Assembly (NCBI GenBank): GCA_022824205.1
Contig: JAJEAI010000095.1
Location: 1 to 64,000 of the forward strand
DNA length: 64,000 nt
Source: Candidatus Binatia bacterium
Lineage (GTDB): Bacteria; Desulfobacterota; Binatia; UBA9968; JAJDTQ01
Reading direction: 5' to 3'
This document shows, piece after piece, positions 20,118 to 28,608 of this stretch. Numbering within the stretch: the stretch's first letter is position 1; each line of letters begins with the position of its first letter. The translations under genes were made by a program, and so were the position numbers. The notes below the pieces were generated by a model. That model saw only the letters and a program-made list of their open reading frames with translations, had not been told where the DNA came from and did not search any database.

Positions 20118-20132
20118 GTGAAAGGGGGAACC

Positions 20133-21422
20133 ATGTCGAAAAAGGAGAACAAGAACCGCGGCATGAGCCGGCGCCGCTTTCTGGCGTCAACGGCCGCAAC
20201 GTCGGCGGCACTGTGGGCATCGCCCATCCTCGGGCAAAACCGCCCGCGGGTGGTGGTGATCGGCGGCGGCGCCGGCGGAGCCACGGTCGCGCGCTACATC
20301 GCCAAGGACTCGAAAGGCGCCATCGACGTGACGCTGCTGGAGCCCACCCGGCGCTACTACACGTGCTTCTTCTCCAACCTCTACCTTGGCGGGTTCGTTG
20401 ATTTCGCATCCATCGGACATTCCTACGGGACCCTGGCGTCGGCCTACGGCATCAACGTGGTCCACGATTGGGCCATCTCCGTCGACCGCGACCGCAAGAC
20501 GGTGGGACTCGCGGGCGGCGGCAGCCTGCCGTACGACCGGCTGGTCCTGTCGCCGGGCATCGACTTTCGTCCGGGCTCGGTACGCGGCTGGGACCTGTCG
20601 CAACAGAACCGGATGCCGCACGCCTACAAGGCAGGCTCGCAAACGCAGCTCCTCAAGGCACAGGTCGCGGCCATGCGCCAGGGCGGCGTCTATTGCATGG
20701 TGGCGCCGCCGAATCCGTTCCGCTGCCCGCCGGGACCGTACGAACGGATCTCGATGGTCGCCCACACGTTGAAGCAGTCCAACCCGAAGGCGAAGATCCT
20801 CATTGTCGACCCCAAGGCCAAGTTTTCCAAGCAGGGGCTGTTCGAGGAGGGTTGGCAGCGCCACTACCCGGGCATGATCGAGCGCGTCGGCCCCGACTTC
20901 GGCGGCGACAAGGTCGAAGTGCGGCCCGGTTCCATGGAAGTGGTGATCGACGGCGAGGTGACCAAGGTGGACGTGTGCAACGTGATCCCGGCGCAGCAGG
21001 CGGGGCGCATCGCCGCGGTGGCCGGCATCACCAACGAAGCCGGCTGGGCACCGGTGGTGCCGCACACCATGCAAAGCCGGGCGGACGAGAACATCCACGT
21101 GCTCGGCGACTCCTCCCACCAGGGGGACATGCCCAAGTCCGGGTTCTCGGCCAACAGCCAGGCCAAGGTCTGCGCCATGGCGGTGCGCGCGGCGCTGACC
21201 GGCTCGAAGGCCTTTCCGGCGCGCTTCCGCAACACCTGCTGGTCGCTGATCGCAACCGACGACGGAGTCAAGGTCGGCGCCTCCTACAAGGCCACGGACG
21301 AGAAGATCGCCAAAACCGACGGCTTCATTTCGAAGACCGGAGAGAGCGCCGAGATACGCAAGGCCACTTATGAGGAATCGCTGGGCTGGTACGCGGCCAT
21401 CTCCAAGGACACCTTCGGGTAA
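20133..21422 (+). CDS. fccB: Flavocytochrome c sulfide dehydrogenase flavoprotein subunit FccB/SoxF
   Basis: A 429-residue flavoprotein. A Tat leader (MSRRRFLASTAATSAALWAS) precedes the FAD-binding VVVIGGGAGGATVARYI. The family's conserved RCPPGPYER segment and NTCWSLI near the C-terminus supply the redox Cys pair, and a C-terminal FCSD domain is present. FccB oxidises sulfide to polysulfide or sulfur and passes electrons to the diheme cytochrome encoded just upstream. ATG 20133 is preferred to GTG 20118 because AGGGGGA precedes it. With SoxYZ but no soxB, soxAX or soxCD in the window, the pathway here is incomplete. Confidence 0.9.
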   Translation: MSKKENKNRGMSRRRFLASTAATSAALWASPILGQNRPRVVVIGGGAGGATVARYIAKDSKGAIDVTLLEPTRRYYTCFFSNLYLGGFVDFASIGHSYGTLASAYGINVVHDWAISVDRDRKTVGLAGGGSLPYDRLVLSPGIDFRPGSVRGWDLSQQNRMPHAYKAGSQTQLLKAQVAAMRQGGVYCMVAPPNPFRCPPGPYERISMVAHTLKQSNPKAKILIVDPKAKFSKQGLFEEGWQRHYPGMIERVGPDFGGDKVEVRPGSMEVVIDGEVTKVDVCNVIPAQQAGRIAAVAGITNEAGWAPVVPHTMQSRADENIHVLGDSSHQGDMPKSGFSANSQAKVCAMAVRAALTGSKAFPARFRNTCWSLIATDDGVKVGASYKATDEKIAKTDGFISKTGESAEIRKATYEESLGWYAAISKDTFG

Positions 21423-21535
21423 TCCGCCCCATGCCGTGAACCGATGGCACGCGGGGGCGACCGCCGGCGGCCGCCCCCGCATTCCCTCTGGCAGGCTGTT
21501 GAGAACACGTCCAACCGGAGTTTTTCAACAGCCTG

Positions 21536-22543
21536 CTACAAGAACCGTCCCACTACTCGGGCCGACACCGCCATCGCCGTGAGCGCCAGCACCGCGGCGA
21601 TGCTCCCCGTGGACACGCCCGACAGTCCGGCCCCCACCGTGCACCCGCCCGCCAGGACGCCCCCCGTCCCCATCAACGCGGCGCCCGCCATGTAGCGGCC
21701 CGTCTGCCGCGGCCCTTCCAGGCTGGTCCAGCGGAACTCGCCCGCGCAGGTCGACGCCACCATGCTGCCGGCCACCACGCCGGCGGCCAGACCGGTGCCG
21801 AAGCCCGCGGGAATGGCGGTGGCCGCCATGGTCCAGAACAGGGTGTCGGCCATGGGTCCGGTGAAACCCAGGGACTGGAGCGGTACGGGATCGAAGTCGT
21901 CCAGGAGGACGAAGCCGGTGCCGACCCACCCCAGCGGCACCAGCAGGCCGATGACGGCGCCCATGGCCAGGTGCCGCGGCGCGGCACCGGAGCGGAACGC
22001 CACGATGGCGGCTGCGAGCGCCAGGCCCCAGGTCCACACTTCCCCGCCGGGCAGGGCCGTCAGCACCACCCTCCCGCCGGGATCCAGGGTCACTCCCGCG
22101 AGCGCCGAGCGCACCGGCGCCAGCACTCCCTTCATCATGGCGTAGGCGACCACCGCGAAAACCACCAGGACAAGGGCCGAGCGCAGGTTGCCGGAACCGG
22201 TGAGCACCGCGAGACGGGAGGCGCAACCGCCGCTGAGCACCATGCCGGCGCCGAACAGGGCGCCGCCCACGAGGACCGCGACCACCGGAAGGTCGGGAGC
22301 CAGGAACCGGTGCGCGTCAAAGGAGATCCACCCCGCGTCCGTAGCTCCCTGGGTGCCGGCAATGGCCAAGGCCAAGGCCAGGGCCCAGACGCCCAGCGCG
22401 GGCAGGCATTCGCTCCATTGCCCCACCAGGCTGCGCCGCAGGCAGAACCGGCTGCGTTGCGCCAGCACGCCGTAGACGGCGCCGAGCGCAAGGCCCAGCA
22501 CCACCGACGCCTGAAGCGGCGTGAGATACTCGAAACCGTCCAT
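21536..22543 (-). CDS. YeeE/YedE (TsuA-like) family sulfur-compound transporter
   Basis: A 335-residue membrane protein with about nine hydrophobic segments and the two duplicated Cys motifs typical of the family, VLSGGCASRLAVLTG and LAGGCTVGAGLSGV. TsuA-type members import thiosulfate through these Cys residues. The start giving MDGFEYLTPLQ has GAGGAGGG upstream; a 72-codon extension in frame is discarded. It is convergent with fccB, and its promoter shares a motif with LLM copy 3, supporting a role in sulfur handling. Confidence 0.87.
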   Translation of the reverse strand: MDGFEYLTPLQASVVLGLALGAVYGVLAQRSRFCLRRSLVGQWSECLPALGVWALALALAIAGTQGATDAGWISFDAHRFLAPDLPVVAVLVGGALFGAGMVLSGGCASRLAVLTGSGNLRSALVLVVFAVVAYAMMKGVLAPVRSALAGVTLDPGGRVVLTALPGGEVWTWGLALAAAIVAFRSGAAPRHLAMGAVIGLLVPLGWVGTGFVLLDDFDPVPLQSLGFTGPMADTLFWTMAATAIPAGFGTGLAAGVVAGSMVASTCAGEFRWTSLEGPRQTGRYMAGAALMGTGGVLAGGCTVGAGLSGVSTGSIAAVLALTAMAVSARVVGRFL

Positions 22544-22573
22544 TCCCTCCTCTTCCGTTCCGGGTTTCGAGGG

Positions 22574-23726: not shown

Positions 23727-23775
23727 CTGGCTAGCTCCCTCCCAGGCTCCCTCGGATTACCCCTCTCCCACGACT

Positions 23776-23824
23776 CCTGGATTCCCGCTTCCGCGGGAAT
23801 GACGTATTGGAGGGCCGGGAATGA
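23776..23824. repeat. ATTCCCGC/GCGGGAAT palindromic repeat with GGAGGGCCGGGAATGAC tail
   Basis: A perfect 20-base palindrome (23781-23800) preceded by CTGG and followed by a tail that matches the copy at 34903-34950 almost base for base. It sits between the DUF6282 gene and the MNIO operon. No good promoter is visible in the remaining gap up to 23989. Confidence 0.8.
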
Positions 23825-23989
23825 CCGTTTTTCCCCGACCGGGGACTAAAGTTCAGCGAACACCACTCGATTAGTATCCGTGAGGGCGTTGCGCGCGGTG
23901 AACGGCGGCGCGGCGCCCGCGAAGTCCGGCGCGTGCCGGGCGCGCGGCCAGTGCCGCGCTCATGATTCCATTTCGAGTCGGGAGGTTCC

Positions 23990-24877
23990 ATGAACAGTCC
24001 ATTTCCATCCGAGTCACCCCTCATCGGCATCGGTTTCCGTGTTCCCATCGCCAAGTGGACGCTGGCGAACCTGCATCGCTTCGACGTGCTGGAGATCACG
24101 GTGGACCATTACATCAAGGGAGGCGAGTACGTGCGCCGGGCCATCCGCAATCTGGTGGACCGGGTCCCCCTCGTGCTCCACGGCGTGGGGCTCTCCATCG
24201 GCACCGACGCTCCCCTGGACGAGGCATACCTCGACGCGGTGGCCGAGGCCGTCGACGACCTGAAGGTCCCGTCCTACAGCGAACATCTCGCGTGGACCAA
24301 GGTTCCCGGCATCGACCTCGCCAACCTGCTGCCAGTGCCCAAGACGCGCGCCGCCGCGGACATGCTCATCCCCAAGATCGAGCGTATCCAGGCGCGCTTG
24401 CCGGTGCCCTTCTCCATCGAGAACATCTCGTACGTCTTCGACTTCCCGGACGCGGAGATGAGCGACGCGGAATTTTTCAACCTGCTGTTCCGCGAGACCG
24501 GCGTGGAGATGCTACTGGACGTTGAGAACCTTTTCGTCAACGCCTCGAACCACGCCGTCGACCCGCTGGCCTTTCTCGAGCAATTGCCCGAAGGCGTGGT
24601 CACCGGGGTGCACGCGGCCGGGGGACCGCTCGTCCGCCGGCCCTACCTCGACGTCCCCTTCCACGCCGACAACCACAGCCACCCGGTGCCGCAACAGGCA
24701 CTGGATCTGCTCGAATACGCCCTCGACCGCCAACGTCCCCGGACCGTGATCCTGGAGCGGGACAACGACTACGAGCAGGGCGAAGAGCTTCTGGCGGACG
24801 TGACGCGCATTCGCCGGCAGGCGGCGAGGGCCGCCTCCTCAACGGAAGGGAGCGTGACCGATGTACCGGCTTATTGA
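23990..24877 (+). CDS. MNIO-family (DUF692) multinuclear iron oxidative enzyme
   Basis: A 295-residue TIM-barrel protein of the DUF692/MNIO family (MbnB, TglH, BufB relatives), which uses two or three iron ions to modify ribosomally made peptides, usually at Cys or Asp/Asn. Family ligands are recognisable: His64 (LVLHGVGLSIG), His99 (YSEHLAW), Glu144 (SIENISY), Asp177 and Asn180 (LLDVENLFVN), His208 (GVHAAGG), Asp227 and His229 (HADNHSHPVP) and Glu256 (ILERDND). The start has GGGAGG upstream. It overlaps the partner gene by 17 bases and leads an operon with an ABC exporter, so a modified exported peptide is the likely product. Confidence 0.88.
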   Translation: MNSPFPSESPLIGIGFRVPIAKWTLANLHRFDVLEITVDHYIKGGEYVRRAIRNLVDRVPLVLHGVGLSIGTDAPLDEAYLDAVAEAVDDLKVPSYSEHLAWTKVPGIDLANLLPVPKTRAAADMLIPKIERIQARLPVPFSIENISYVFDFPDAEMSDAEFFNLLFRETGVEMLLDVENLFVNASNHAVDPLAFLEQLPEGVVTGVHAAGGPLVRRPYLDVPFHADNHSHPVPQQALDLLEYALDRQRPRTVILERDNDYEQGEELLADVTRIRRQAARAASSTEGSVTDVPAY

Positions 24878-25730
24878 CAGGCAAACCCATCTACTCCGGC
24901 ATCTGACCAGCCCGGCCCTCATCTTCGGAACCCCCGACCTCGATTCCGCGGCCCGAGACCCGGAGCTTCAGGGCATGGACGTGGGCCGGCTCCGGTTGGA
25001 GGCGGAGTTCTCCTACAACAAGCGCATGGGGCGCATCCGCCAGACCTTCGATCGCACGGCCACGCTGCTGGGACACGGATTCTCGGCCCTCACCCGCGAC
25101 TACGCCGCCGCGTGCCCGCCGTTGACCTACGAGCGTTACCCGGATGCCGAACGCTTCTTCGAACGGTTTCTGGCGCCGGCCGTCCACGAACCGCCGGGCC
25201 CGCCCTGGGCCGCGGACGTGGCCGCCATCGAGTTGGCCCTGGCTCGGGCGCGGACCCTGCGCCCCGCGGCCATGGAGGGCGAAGCGTTGGCGGCGCGTCC
25301 CCAAGCCCCCGGTTTCTGGTACCGCACGCATCCGTGCGCGGGGCTCGTGAAGTGCCGCCACGACGTGCGTGCCTTGTTCGAGCCCGCCCGAGCCCGAGCG
25401 CCGGTGACGGAACGGAGGGTGCACATGGTCGTGCTGGCGGTCAAGGGACGGCGACGTCCCAAGGTCCTGGAGTTGGCGCCGGAGGCCTTCGCGCTCCTGG
25501 AGGCCTCCCGCGAATGGAGTCCGCTGTCATCCGGTGCAACCCCGACCGACGACGACGCGGTCCATCCCGCGACCGGCCGGGCGGTCGATGATGCAGGCGA
25601 TCCGGCGCAGGATTCGGAAAACGGCGGCACGGACGACAACGAAACCCGCCGAGAGATGGTCAAGCAACTGGCGGCGCAAGGGCTCGCACTGGTGAGCATC
25701 GATGATACCCGCGACCCGGCACACGCTTGA
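24861..25730 (+). CDS. Putative MNIO partner protein (DUF2063/BufC-like)
   Basis: A 289-residue protein whose gene overlaps the MNIO gene by 17 bases. The N-terminal helical part (EFSYNKRMGRIRQTFDR, then ALTRDYAAACPPLTYE and DVAAIELALARARTL) resembles the DUF2063-type partner proteins of MNIO enzymes, which bind the precursor peptide and present it to the enzyme. The middle holds His and Cys residues (RTHPCAGLVKCRHD). Residues about 225-260 are Asp-rich and low-complexity. The family call rests on pattern and context, so it is moderate. Confidence 0.65.
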   Translation: MYRLIDRQTHLLRHLTSPALIFGTPDLDSAARDPELQGMDVGRLRLEAEFSYNKRMGRIRQTFDRTATLLGHGFSALTRDYAAACPPLTYERYPDAERFFERFLAPAVHEPPGPPWAADVAAIELALARARTLRPAAMEGEALAARPQAPGFWYRTHPCAGLVKCRHDVRALFEPARARAPVTERRVHMVVLAVKGRRRPKVLELAPEAFALLEASREWSPLSSGATPTDDDAVHPATGRAVDDAGDPAQDSENGGTDDNETRREMVKQLAAQGLALVSIDDTRDPAHA

Positions 25731-27642
25731 GAACCGCCGCCCGGCCGGCGCGGGCACCCGGAGCGCGGGAGCCCCCGGCCGGCCGAAACCGCGGGTGGAC
25801 GCCGGCGGCGAGCCGGCGGAGACCGCGCCGAAACCCGCCGCCGCGGAAGACGCGGAGTTCTCGCTCGCGTCCGTCGCAAAGCAGGTGTTTCACAACAAGG
25901 CTGTCTTCGGGCCGTTGGTGGCGGCGTCCTTCTTCGTCAACCTCCTGGGCTACCTCTACCCCTTCGCCTTCCTGATCATCATAGACAAGGTCCTGTCCAA
26001 CCGGGGCGCCGCCACCCTCGACGTCATCATCGTCAGCCTGCTCTTCTTCCTGCTGTTCGAAGCCGTCCTGCGCGCGGCGCGCCACCGGGCGCTACGCGGC
26101 GCCGTGCGGGAGATGGACCGCACTCTGCTGTCGCGGCTCATCCGGCACTCGCTGGAGCTCCCGGCCTCCTTCTACCTCCGCAACACCCCGGTGGAGACCC
26201 TCTCCCGCATCGAGGAACTGCAGCAACTGCGCCGGTTCCTCACCAACGCCGTGGTGTTCGTGTTCGTCGACATCCTGTTCGTGCTCGTCTTCCTGGCGTT
26301 GATGCTGCATTTCAGCCTGACGCTGTCGATGGTCATCCTGGCCTCCCTGCCCCTCTACATCGCTCCGGCCTTCGTGGTGATGCCCACGCTGCGGCGATGG
26401 AGCCGGCGGACCCGCGGCAGCCGGCGGGAAAGCAACGAGGCGGTGCTCGACACCTTCACCGGCATCGAGACCGTCAAGGGCATGAACGAGGTGAAGGCCC
26501 AGGAAGCGTTCCTCGTCGACCAGGTGGACGCGGCGATCGCATCGGAGGAGGACACGCAAGACCTGCGCGAATCCATGACCCAGTACAACCAGTTCGTGAA
26601 CCGGTTCGCCACCGCCGGACTGCTCTGGTTCGGCGCCTCCATGGTCCTGGACGGCCAACTCAGCCTGGGGCAGCTCGTGGCGGTCAACCTGGTCAACATG
26701 CGCTTTTCCCAGCCCATGATGCGCCTGTGCCTGTTCGTGTATGACTTCGGCCGGTCGCGCGGCTTGGTGAAGGAACTGGGGACCGTGCTGAACGAGGAGA
26801 CCGAGCGCCAGGGCGGCCACCTGGTCCGACTGTCCGGTTTCAAGGGGGGCATCCGCTTCGAGGACGTCCGCTTCCGCTATCCGGACACGGACCGCATGGC
26901 GCTCGACGGTGTGACCTTCGACGTCGCACCCGGCGAGACGGTGGGCATCGCGGGGCCCTCCGGCTCGGGCAAGAGCACGGTGAGCCGCCTCATTCAGAGG
27001 CTCTACCTCGCCAACGAGGGACGCGTGCTCCTGGACGGCGTGGACGCGGCCGTCATCGACCCGGCCTGGCTGCGCGGCCACATCGGTGCCGTGGAGCAGG
27101 ACTATCCCATCTTCCGGCGCAGCATCGCCGACAACATCGCGCTGGGGCCGGGGGAACGCCAGATGCCTCGGGTGACAGCGGCGGCCAAAGCGGCATGTGT
27201 CCACGAGTTCATCACCCGCATGCCCAAGGGCTACGCCACCCGCATCGGCGCCCGCGGAAGCCTTCTCTCGGGCGGTGAACGGCAACGGCTGGCGCTGGCG
27301 CGCGGGCTGTTTCACGCGCGCACGTTGCTCATTCTGGACGAGGCCACGAGTGCGCTGGACAAGCAGGACGAGCTGCGCATCCAGCAGAACCTGCGGGCGC
27401 TGGCGCAGGGACGGACGGTCGTCGTCATCGCCCACCGGTTGTCCGCGTTGCGCCAGGTGGACCGCATCCTCTGCCTGGACCGCGGGAAGATCACCGAGCA
27501 GGGAACGCCCGCGGAACTGCTCCGCGGCAACGGCTACTTCGCGGACATGGTGCGCCGGGAAGCCGACTTGATGCAGGCCTTGGCGGGGCCGCGCCCGGCG
27601 ACGGCCGCGGGCTCGGGAGAAAGGGAGGAACGCAATGGATAG
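25702..27642 (+). CDS. Type-I-secretion-like ABC exporter (fused permease-ATPase)
   Basis: A 646-residue half-exporter. After about 50 disordered Pro/Ala-rich residues come six membrane helices (about 65-330) related to the HlyB/LapB group (LPASFYLRNTPVETLSRIEEL, LRRFLTNAVVF). An ATPase domain follows with Walker A GPSGSGKST near 420, Q-loop VEQDYPIF, signature LSGGERQRLALARG near 523, Walker B LLILDEAT and H-loop IAHRLS. No C39 peptidase domain is present, so it would not itself cut a double-Gly leader. It overlaps the partner gene by 29 bases. No membrane-fusion protein or outer-membrane factor is nearby. Confidence 0.87.
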   Translation: MIPATRHTLENRRPAGAGTRSAGAPGRPKPRVDAGGEPAETAPKPAAAEDAEFSLASVAKQVFHNKAVFGPLVAASFFVNLLGYLYPFAFLIIIDKVLSNRGAATLDVIIVSLLFFLLFEAVLRAARHRALRGAVREMDRTLLSRLIRHSLELPASFYLRNTPVETLSRIEELQQLRRFLTNAVVFVFVDILFVLVFLALMLHFSLTLSMVILASLPLYIAPAFVVMPTLRRWSRRTRGSRRESNEAVLDTFTGIETVKGMNEVKAQEAFLVDQVDAAIASEEDTQDLRESMTQYNQFVNRFATAGLLWFGASMVLDGQLSLGQLVAVNLVNMRFSQPMMRLCLFVYDFGRSRGLVKELGTVLNEETERQGGHLVRLSGFKGGIRFEDVRFRYPDTDRMALDGVTFDVAPGETVGIAGPSGSGKSTVSRLIQRLYLANEGRVLLDGVDAAVIDPAWLRGHIGAVEQDYPIFRRSIADNIALGPGERQMPRVTAAAKAACVHEFITRMPKGYATRIGARGSLLSGGERQRLALARGLFHARTLLILDEATSALDKQDELRIQQNLRALAQGRTVVVIAHRLSALRQVDRILCLDRGKITEQGTPAELLRGNGYFADMVRREADLMQALAGPRPATAAGSGEREERNG

Positions 27643-27775
27643 CACGGAACGGGACCTCCGCGTCCTTCCCGTGGCGGGACGGTGCCTGCGGCTGTTGGGC
27701 CGCTACGTCGTGTTGATGGCGCGCTACGCGGTGGTGGTGACGCTGGACGGCCTCTTGCGCCGGATCCGTCTCTGA
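27635..27775 (+). CDS. 46-residue Arg-rich amphipathic small protein
   Basis: This short gene overlaps the exporter stop by 8 bases and ends 5 bases before the SDR gene. AGGGAGGAA lies directly before its ATG, one of the better ribosome-binding sites in the operon. It begins MDSTERDLRVLPVAG and continues with RCLRLLGRYVVLMARYAVVV and LDGLLRRIRL, an amphipathic or membrane-seeking helix with one Cys (residue 17) and eight Arg. No homologue is recognised. It could be the MNIO substrate peptide, an exporter accessory subunit or a leader for the SDR. A typical MNIO precursor would have more Cys, which weighs against the first option. Confidence 0.6.
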   Translation: MDSTERDLRVLPVAGRCLRLLGRYVVLMARYAVVVTLDGLLRRIRL

Positions 27776-27780
27776 CGCTC

Positions 27781-28608
27781 ATGGACCTCGGCATCAGGGG
27801 CCGGAGCGCACTGGTCTTCGGAGGATCTCGCGGCATCGGCCGGGCCGTAGCCGGAGCGTTGGCGGCCGAGGGCGCCGACGTCGCGGTGTGCGCGCGCAAG
27901 GAATGGGCGGCGCGACAGGTCGCGGCCGAGGCCGTGGAACGGGGGCGCGTCAAGGCCAAGGGCTACCCGCTGGAGGCGTGGGACGAAGCATCGGCCAGCG
28001 CCCAGGTAGACCGGATCGTGGGTGACTTCGGCGCCATCGACATCCTGTTCGGCATCGCCCGGCACACCTTGCCGGACCCCGAACAGGGCAACCCGGGAGC
28101 GCCCTCATGGAGTGCGCGGCTCGACGAAGGCTTCCTGCGCTTCAGGGCGCTCACGGAAGCCCTCCTTCCCGACATGCGGCGCCGGCGTTGGGGGCGCGTC
28201 CTCTGGATGGTTCCATGGCCGGAGACCCGCGACAGCGCCGAGGCGAGCGTTCGCGCGGCAACCGGGGCCGCGCTCACGGCTTGGTTGCATTGCGCCGCCG
28301 CGGAAGTCGCCCGCGAAAACGTGACCGTCAACGTCATGAGGCCGCCGCCGGTCTGGCGGCGGCCCGGGCGCGCCGGTCGATTGCGGCCCGAGTCGGGTTC
28401 GGCACCGGGCGGGGCAGGTCCGCCGCTTGCAGGGACGGGCACCCGGGACAGGGACCCTTCCCGGGCGAACGAGGTTCATTCGGCCGCGGAGATAGCCGCG
28501 GTGGCGGCCTTCCTCTTGAGCGACCTCGCGCGGAGCGTGTGCGGCACGACCGTGGAACTGGGTGCCGCCATGACCCCGCCGCGGTACCCTAACGACCCGC
28601 CGCCATAA
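27781..28608 (+). CDS. SDR-fold protein lacking the catalytic Ser-Tyr-Lys
   Basis: A 275-residue Rossmann-fold protein with an intact NAD(P) motif (GGSRGIGRAVAGAL) near residue 14. The catalytic region is degenerate: where SDRs have Ser, Tyr-x-x-x-Lys, this reads VLWMVPWP and SVRAATGAALTAW, with no Tyr or Lys at the expected places. A Pro/Gly/Arg-rich insert (about 200-235) precedes the C-terminal IAAVAAFLLSDLARSV. It is probably a non-catalytic nucleotide-binding protein or has different chemistry. It is last in the MNIO operon, 5 bases after the small-protein gene. Confidence 0.8.
   Translation: MDLGIRGRSALVFGGSRGIGRAVAGALAAEGADVAVCARKEWAARQVAAEAVERGRVKAKGYPLEAWDEASASAQVDRIVGDFGAIDILFGIARHTLPDPEQGNPGAPSWSARLDEGFLRFRALTEALLPDMRRRRWGRVLWMVPWPETRDSAEASVRAATGAALTAWLHCAAAEVARENVTVNVMRPPPVWRRPGRAGRLRPESGSAPGGAGPPLAGTGTRDRDPSRANEVHSAAEIAAVAAFLLSDLARSVCGTTVELGAAMTPPRYPNDPPP

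Follow-up and report, generated by a model that had tools for sequence, protein, structure and literature searches.

The window, by which we mean the whole stretch of 64,000 nucleotides analyzed here from a Candidatus Binatia contig, contains an operon of five reading frames encoding an MNIO enzyme, its partner protein, an ABC exporter, a 46-residue product and a protein with an SDR fold (Table 1). As stated in the preliminary description, consecutive frames overlap by 17 bp (24861-24877), 29 bp (25702-25730) and 8 bp (27635-27642), and a 5-bp gap (27776-27780) separates the 46-aa ORF from the SDR gene. The order MNIO-partner-ABC-SDR is kept among relatives, and thus this arrangement is not due to chance. 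Genes for a DUF6282 protein and a polysaccharide deacetylase flank the operon at every native locus within contig reach. Upstream of the operon (20118-22561) lies a flavoprotein gene with a twin-arginine-like start, the product of which by eye resembles sulfide dehydrogenase flavoproteins, together with a gene for a YeeE/YedE-type sulphur transporter (PF04143); both are also kept in locus L037.

Table 1. Genes of the operon in the window and candidate precursor genes located elsewhere in the same genome
Feature	Position	Strand	Basis
MNIO (DUF692, PF05114) enzyme, 295 aa	23990-24877	+	PF05114, E=1.9e-73
MNIO partner, PME type 2 (predicted fold), 289 aa	24861-25730	+	AlphaFold model and Foldseek
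HlyB-like ABC exporter (permease and ATPase), 646 aa	25702-27642	+	PF00664, PF00005, TIGR01846
46-aa ORF	27635-27775	+	Orthologues; position of hlyD in complete clusters
SDR-fold protein, 275 aa	27781-28608	+	PF00106, 79.8 bits; Rossmann motif GGSRGIG
Candidate precursor	C115:69859-70227
Candidate precursor	C115:70253-70843
Candidate precursor	C158:10331-10576

Components of the MNIO operon

The first gene product is an unambiguous member of the PF05114 superfamily (profile search, 247 bits against a cut-off of 25) and the sole PF05114 match in the 4.8-Mb assembly. Its best NCBIfam model is BufB (201 bits, equivalog cut-off 310), followed by HvfB (186 bits, cut-off 360); it is nearest to these two families by score yet falls below both equivalog cut-offs, and its relation to MbnB (33 bits, cut-off 325) is only distant. 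The metal-site motifs DHY, HG, SEH, ENIS, DVEN, H208, DxH and ERD are conserved in the subfamily, and their His, Asp and Glu residues are invariant in alignment A4 and align with those of 3bww, TglH (8hci) and MbnB (7dz9). The enzyme is present in eight of the nine genus genomes. In the ninth (G007), which is 76% complete, precursors are present and no MNIO was detected. Across the genus the frames are intact, with identities of 79-94% for the MNIO (94% in G003 and G006) and 72-90% for the ABC protein; the one MNIO pair scored has a dN/dS of about 0.2. Relatives occur in alphaproteobacterial bins (68% identity at L036 and 60% at L038), and a plasmid collection yielded only distant MNIOs, below 37% identity among the matches listed. 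No DUF2282 or DoxX match was found among eight proteins scanned around the operon, in line with the reported absence of bufferin companions.

The partner protein matches no Pfam family above cut-off, DUF2063 reaching 14.5 bits against 27.2. The best Foldseek match of its AlphaFold model (pLDDT 80) is TglI of the TglHI complex (8hi7_A, E=1.1e-5, probability 1.00), followed by 8hci_A (E=4e-4) and then by MbnC chains at E ~1. By its modelled fold, the partner is a PME type 2 in the terms of PMC12452194, that is, a protein with a TglI/NGO1945-related fold that lacks the DUF2063 signature found in the PME type 1 partners of bufferin/captophorin clusters. The model consists of a DUF2063-like helical domain and an RRE-like domain, and the protein is predicted to bind the precursor leader. 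A profile of the partner matched the window's own genome alone in a phylum sample (395 genomes), and two genomes among 385 alphaproteobacteria sampled from the class.

The exporter scores best with the HlyB model TIGR01846 (532 bits, below the subfamily cut-off of 725). The preliminary description had reported a type-I-secretion-like exporter without a C39 domain joined to the MNIO and partner genes, and this holds for the window copy. However, a C39-like domain is kept in the homologues L032, L034, L036, L038 and L041, and its loss is therefore not a trait common to homologous exporters. Judging from its sequence (14 bits against a cut-off of 22, and on inspection no Cys at the expected site), the domain is degenerate in these relatives; a peptidase C39 with catalytic Cys and His, as in C39 bacteriocin exporters, was not found.

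The SDR-fold protein retains the nucleotide-binding motif and lacks the catalytic YxxxK of classical SDRs in an alignment with FabG, nor is YxxxK conserved among nine orthologues. Its retention in nine operon copies could reflect a pseudo-enzyme or unusual chemistry.

The hlyD-tauD locus and candidate (Xaa-Cys)n precursors

Homologues of HlyD and TauD are encoded as an adjacent pair in all nine genus genomes. The HlyD protein of L037 matches TIGR01843 with 346 bits (cut-off 209), and its counterpart in the window's genome, 72% identical, is encoded on contig C158, at a locus other than the operon. TauD of L037 matches PF02668 (105 bits, cut-off 27), and in the HxD...H motif the HAD and the distal His are invariant in five sequences. 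The genome also encodes an outer-membrane efflux protein (OEP, 102.8 bits), which completes the type I secretion set of an HlyB-type ABC protein, an HlyD-type adaptor and an OEP.

A candidate precursor gene lies just upstream of hlyD-tauD in five genomes, that of the window (G000) and G001, G003, G006 and G007. In G004 the precursor remains at this second locus and hlyD-tauD lie within the MNIO operon (MNIO-partner-HlyB-HlyD-TauD-SDR), one copy of which is directly preceded by a (GC)n precursor gene. Components of a single system thus move between the two loci. A binning error does not explain the split, since G004 is a single contig and both loci of G001 lie about 60 kb apart on one contig of 4.09 Mb. 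Complete clusters were found at L041 of G004 (precursor-MNIO-partner-HlyB-HlyD-TauD-SDR) and at L036 of an alphaproteobacterium (precursor-S9 peptidase-MNIO-partner-HlyB-HlyD-TauD). Genes for a phage terminase GpA, a C5 methylase and an integrase core occur near L041 (G004:C1:3715000-3732000), and a phage-type integrase gene lies about 1.4 kb downstream of the L036 cluster. These neighbors suggest horizontal movement, with the pathway traveling between Binatia and alphaproteobacteria. The gene between precursor and MNIO at L036 (6389-7978) belongs to the prolyl-oligopeptidase family (S9), and its product is a candidate leader peptidase. Next to the precursor-hlyD-tauD locus, genes for STAS and GPP34 (Golgi phosphoprotein 3 family) proteins recur constantly (L138 2102-3100 and syntenic loci).

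The first lead to the precursors came from L041: the second MNIO gene of G004 has upstream of it an ORF that encodes the run HGCGCGCGCGCGCGCGCGCGCGC. The pattern (GGN TGY)5 matched the window's own genome, G001, G004 and G008, where the reversed control gave zero matches; its only other matches, in G045, were discarded as GGGTGT simple repeats, which the reversed control also matched. Precursor profile A2, built from leader and repeat with hand-trimmed rows, matched all nine genus genomes (best E of each from 1e-19 to 4e-7) and gave nothing below E=0.02 in 49 order and class genomes.

We read out 20 precursors, of which 19 belong to the genus and the other to the alphaproteobacterial locus L036; the C158 protein of the window's genome is 81 aa long. 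All but one contain 10-20 Cys and begin at a clear ATG or GTG codon; the exception, a copy in G003 with a GTG inside the leader, looks decayed. The N-terminus is an acidic leader that on inspection has no signal-like hydrophobic stretch and carries the motif …PWxLDxxxxDLDLE[IV]H, in which the Trp precedes the first Cys by exactly 16 residues in 20 of 20 sequences. The core consists of some 10-17 consecutive Gly/Ser/Ala-Cys dipeptides, with Gly most often preceding Cys, then Ser or Ala, and an acidic tail follows in most. The repeats draw on the full set of Gly (four), Cys (two) and Ser (six) codons, which argues for selection on the protein rather than a DNA microsatellite. Beyond the repeat the proteins are modular: those of L077, L145 and L146 have a common C-terminal domain (...MDPVAEMTGQHYDP...IQNAVDSIRQSLHN), and others end in Gly/Ala-rich segments.

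Two precursors that were scanned matched no Pfam or NCBIfam family above cut-off. The precursors have neither the Sec signal peptide nor the DUF2282, Lys-Cys or Cys-Lys type sequence of bufferin/captophorin precursors, and inspection revealed no recognizable RTX repeats. In the window's genome no precursor adjoins the MNIO gene, and the pairing of the two therefore rests on relatives; none was found near the MNIO gene at L038 and none was seen at L164. A short ORF hidden upstream of the MNIO gene in the window, raised in the preliminary description, was rejected as a precursor, as the region 23727-23989 aligns poorly among relatives and holds no conserved ORF.

Two alphaproteobacterial genomes (G437 and G840) encode a short peptide directly upstream of a related MNIO (48-49% identity to that of the window). 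These peptides end in DSCGCSCGCGE or DSCSCGCGCG and have a common leader, GIVEWQIQ[ST][IV]ASAADETN, with the Trp 17 residues before the first Cys; the MNIO gene is followed by genes for a type-2-like partner and a glycosyltransferase. The peptides of L156 and L163 are 45 to 48 aa long. In all, an MNIO-partner pair followed by a glycosyltransferase of one family occurs in three alphaproteobacteria (L038 9597-10952, L156 10473-12332, and L163), possibly a variant with a glycosylated product.

A proposed split pathway and its alternatives

The genomic association of the precursors with the MNIO system is strong. We consider it likely, with a probability of roughly 0.8, that the operon is the maturase and pump half of an (Xaa-Cys)n pathway split over two or more loci. 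We infer that substrate recognition, chemistry and export of these proteins would proceed as follows. Precursors encoded in trans, three of them in the window's genome (contigs C115 and C158), carry a leader marked by the invariant Trp and by a motif of the DLDLE[IV]H type. The type-2 partner would bind this leader and present the repeat to the MNIO, which is predicted to oxidize successive Cys residues, most likely to 5-thiooxazoles. The product would leave the cytoplasm through HlyB from the operon, the unlinked HlyD encoded next to the precursor gene, and a TolC-like protein. The TauD-type Fe/2OG dioxygenase encoded beside hlyD may tailor the product further, and the SDR-fold protein is probably accessory.

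The nearest characterized MNIOs make 5-thiooxazole (PMC13097082), and by analogy this is our best guess for the Cys product here, with the reservation that these relatives work with type-1 partners and on Lys-Cys or other motifs. FonBC reportedly favors Cys residues followed by a small amino acid, as a rule Gly (PMC13097082), a preference with which (Gly-Cys)n agrees, as it offers Gly after Cys at most positions. According to the main text of a survey of the family, PME type 2 partners accompany precursors without a signal peptide (PMC12452194); such precursors fit export by HlyB-HlyD rather than Sec. A metal-binding role of the product is likewise a guess by analogy. More tentatively, with the odds somewhat against it, up to 17 consecutive Gly/Ser/Ala-Cys dipeptides might become a near-continuous chain of Cys-derived heterocycles, probably 5-thiooxazoles, in a protein-sized, metal-binding product secreted by the type I route.

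The 46-aa ORF was considered as a possible conserved short gene. Its frame is conserved in four species, with orthologues of exactly 46 aa at L040, L033 and L034, but it is not universal: the L032 version is frameshifted, and at L039 (G003) and L042 (G006) it is absent, the ABC stop codon nearly abutting the SDR start. In G004 its position is occupied by hlyD and tauD, and at L041 hlyD likewise overlaps the end of the ABC gene by 8 bp. Two of the orthologues weakly resemble the HlyD N-terminus of L041 (shuffle p ~0.002, the best of 16 comparisons and a value partly aided by common first residues). The label of an Arg-rich peptide describes the product poorly, as its conserved part is a hydrophobic segment like a membrane anchor, with no core. 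On this sequence evidence the ORF is probably a remnant of hlyD or, less likely, encodes a small membrane protein.

The latter could be a subunit that replaces the HlyD anchor or regulates the exporter where hlyD has moved, which is compatible with the split pathway. The hlyD start site, the hydrophobic segment, the constant length in four species and a dN/dS of 0.26 for the closest pair speak for such a subunit; in other pairs the ratio is near or above 1. We nevertheless regard it as rather unlikely, given that two close relatives have lost the ORF, that a third has a frameshift in it, and that these genomes still carry a full-length HlyD elsewhere.

A different reading leaves the MNIO with another substrate and takes the (Xaa-Cys)n proteins as unmodified, metallothionein-like metal scavengers exported by HlyB-HlyD. 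CXC arrays do bind metals, and in most of the genus the precursor gene is linked to hlyD-tauD and not to the MNIO gene. However, the precursor lies directly upstream of the MNIO at L041, L156 and L163 and is near-linked at L036, the spacing from leader to first Cys is constant, as is typical of RiPP leaders, the partner has the leader-binding fold of TglI, and no other MNIO exists in the genome. We thus judge this reading improbable.

The preliminary description proposed that the 46-residue peptide itself is the precursor, which the MNIO would modify and the neighboring ABC protein would export. It is encoded in the operon, is translationally coupled and of constant length in four species, and has a GRC motif conserved in each of them. 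This proposal is now very hard to sustain, and we rejected it: the ORF is missing from G003 and G006 in spite of their closely similar MNIOs, frameshifted in L032 and absent from clusters that carry hlyD, whose position it takes; its dN/dS values range from 0.26 to above 1, its sequence is anchor-like, and genuine Cys-repeat proteins are encoded elsewhere in the same genomes. Operons without the small ORF and Cys-rich precursors at other sites are two findings that the preliminary description had itself named as refuting. Least probable of all is that the operon is a decayed, inactive remnant, as the missing hlyD and tauD, the SDR without catalytic residues and the lost C39-like domain might indicate, because the MNIO and ABC frames are intact and conserved across the genus, the scored MNIO pair has a low dN/dS, and hlyD-tauD and precursors are intact elsewhere in each genome.

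Comparison with known systems

Among characterized systems, bufferins/captophorins (Buf1, Buf2, oxazolin/HvfA, fontiphorin) have the closest MNIO by NCBIfam score (BufB/HvfB type), Cys-rich repeat substrates with Cys-Gly dyads, as in EGKCG, and partners with DUF2063-like and RRE-like parts. The split pathway differs from them in having a PME type 2 instead of PME1, no Sec signal peptide, an (Xaa-Cys)n core where theirs is EGKCG or DUF2282, a type I exporter, additional TauD and SDR proteins and an operon without DoxX. It resembles the pearlin/3-thiaglutamate system (TglH-TglI) in the partner fold, the signal-less leader precursor and the predicted action of the MNIO on Cys. TglA carries a single added C-terminal Cys, whereas the precursors described here are protein-sized and have long internal Cys repeats. 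With methanobactin (MbnA-MbnB-MbnC) it would share an MNIO and partner that act on the Cys residues of a leader peptide; however, MbnB is a distant relative, the operon encodes neither an MbnB equivalog nor an MbnC partner, and the precursors are unlike MbnA. The HlyB-like ABC protein, an HlyD above the NCBIfam cut-off and an OEP recall type I secretion (HlyB-HlyD-TolC), although HlyB and HlyD are here encoded at separate loci, the substrates lack recognizable RTX repeats and the predicted cargo is a modified-peptide precursor.

A further related group is adjamnio-I, a set of 100 predicted precursors encoded beside an MNIO and a PME type 2 (PMC12452194). By the description in the main text of that survey, the two are alike in size and Cys content (122-293 aa, 8-21 Cys), the lack of a signal peptide and the type of partner, and on this description the (Xaa-Cys)n precursors might overlap with the adjamnio-I family; the same main text does not present ABC, HlyD or TauD genes or Gly-Cys repeats for adjamnio-I, nor does it mention ABC transporters, HlyD, TauD, type I secretion or Gly-Cys repeats for MNIO systems in general. 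The earlier suggestion of a different class of MNIO cluster looks justified, as neither this main text (PMC12452194) nor the captophorin paper, as far as these sources go, describes one of this kind. A literature search returned no paper on MNIO enzymes and type I secretion together, and none in which DUF692 appears alongside HlyD and TauD. Within the limits of these sources, and with adjamnio-I compared by description, the system appears new in substrate, export and gene organization.

MNIO enzymes are a fast-growing family of peptide modifiers, and to our knowledge no modified-peptide pathway has been studied in Candidatus Binatia. If the proposed pathway is correct, it would show that the genes of an MNIO cluster may be distributed over separate loci, and it would tie MNIO chemistry to both a TauD dioxygenase and a type I exporter. 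Should the 17-dipeptide reading be true, we know of no denser heterocycle array in any MNIO product and of no earlier MNIO pathway that uses type I secretion. The main text of the 2025 survey notes that many MNIO substrates are hard to identify without a small ORF nearby (PMC12452194); here the likely substrate is located in trans and carries a testable leader motif. If the proposal holds, (Gly-Cys)n proteins, in which a single run can hold as many as 17 Cys, would be good models for studying processivity and dense arrays of metal-binding heterocycles.
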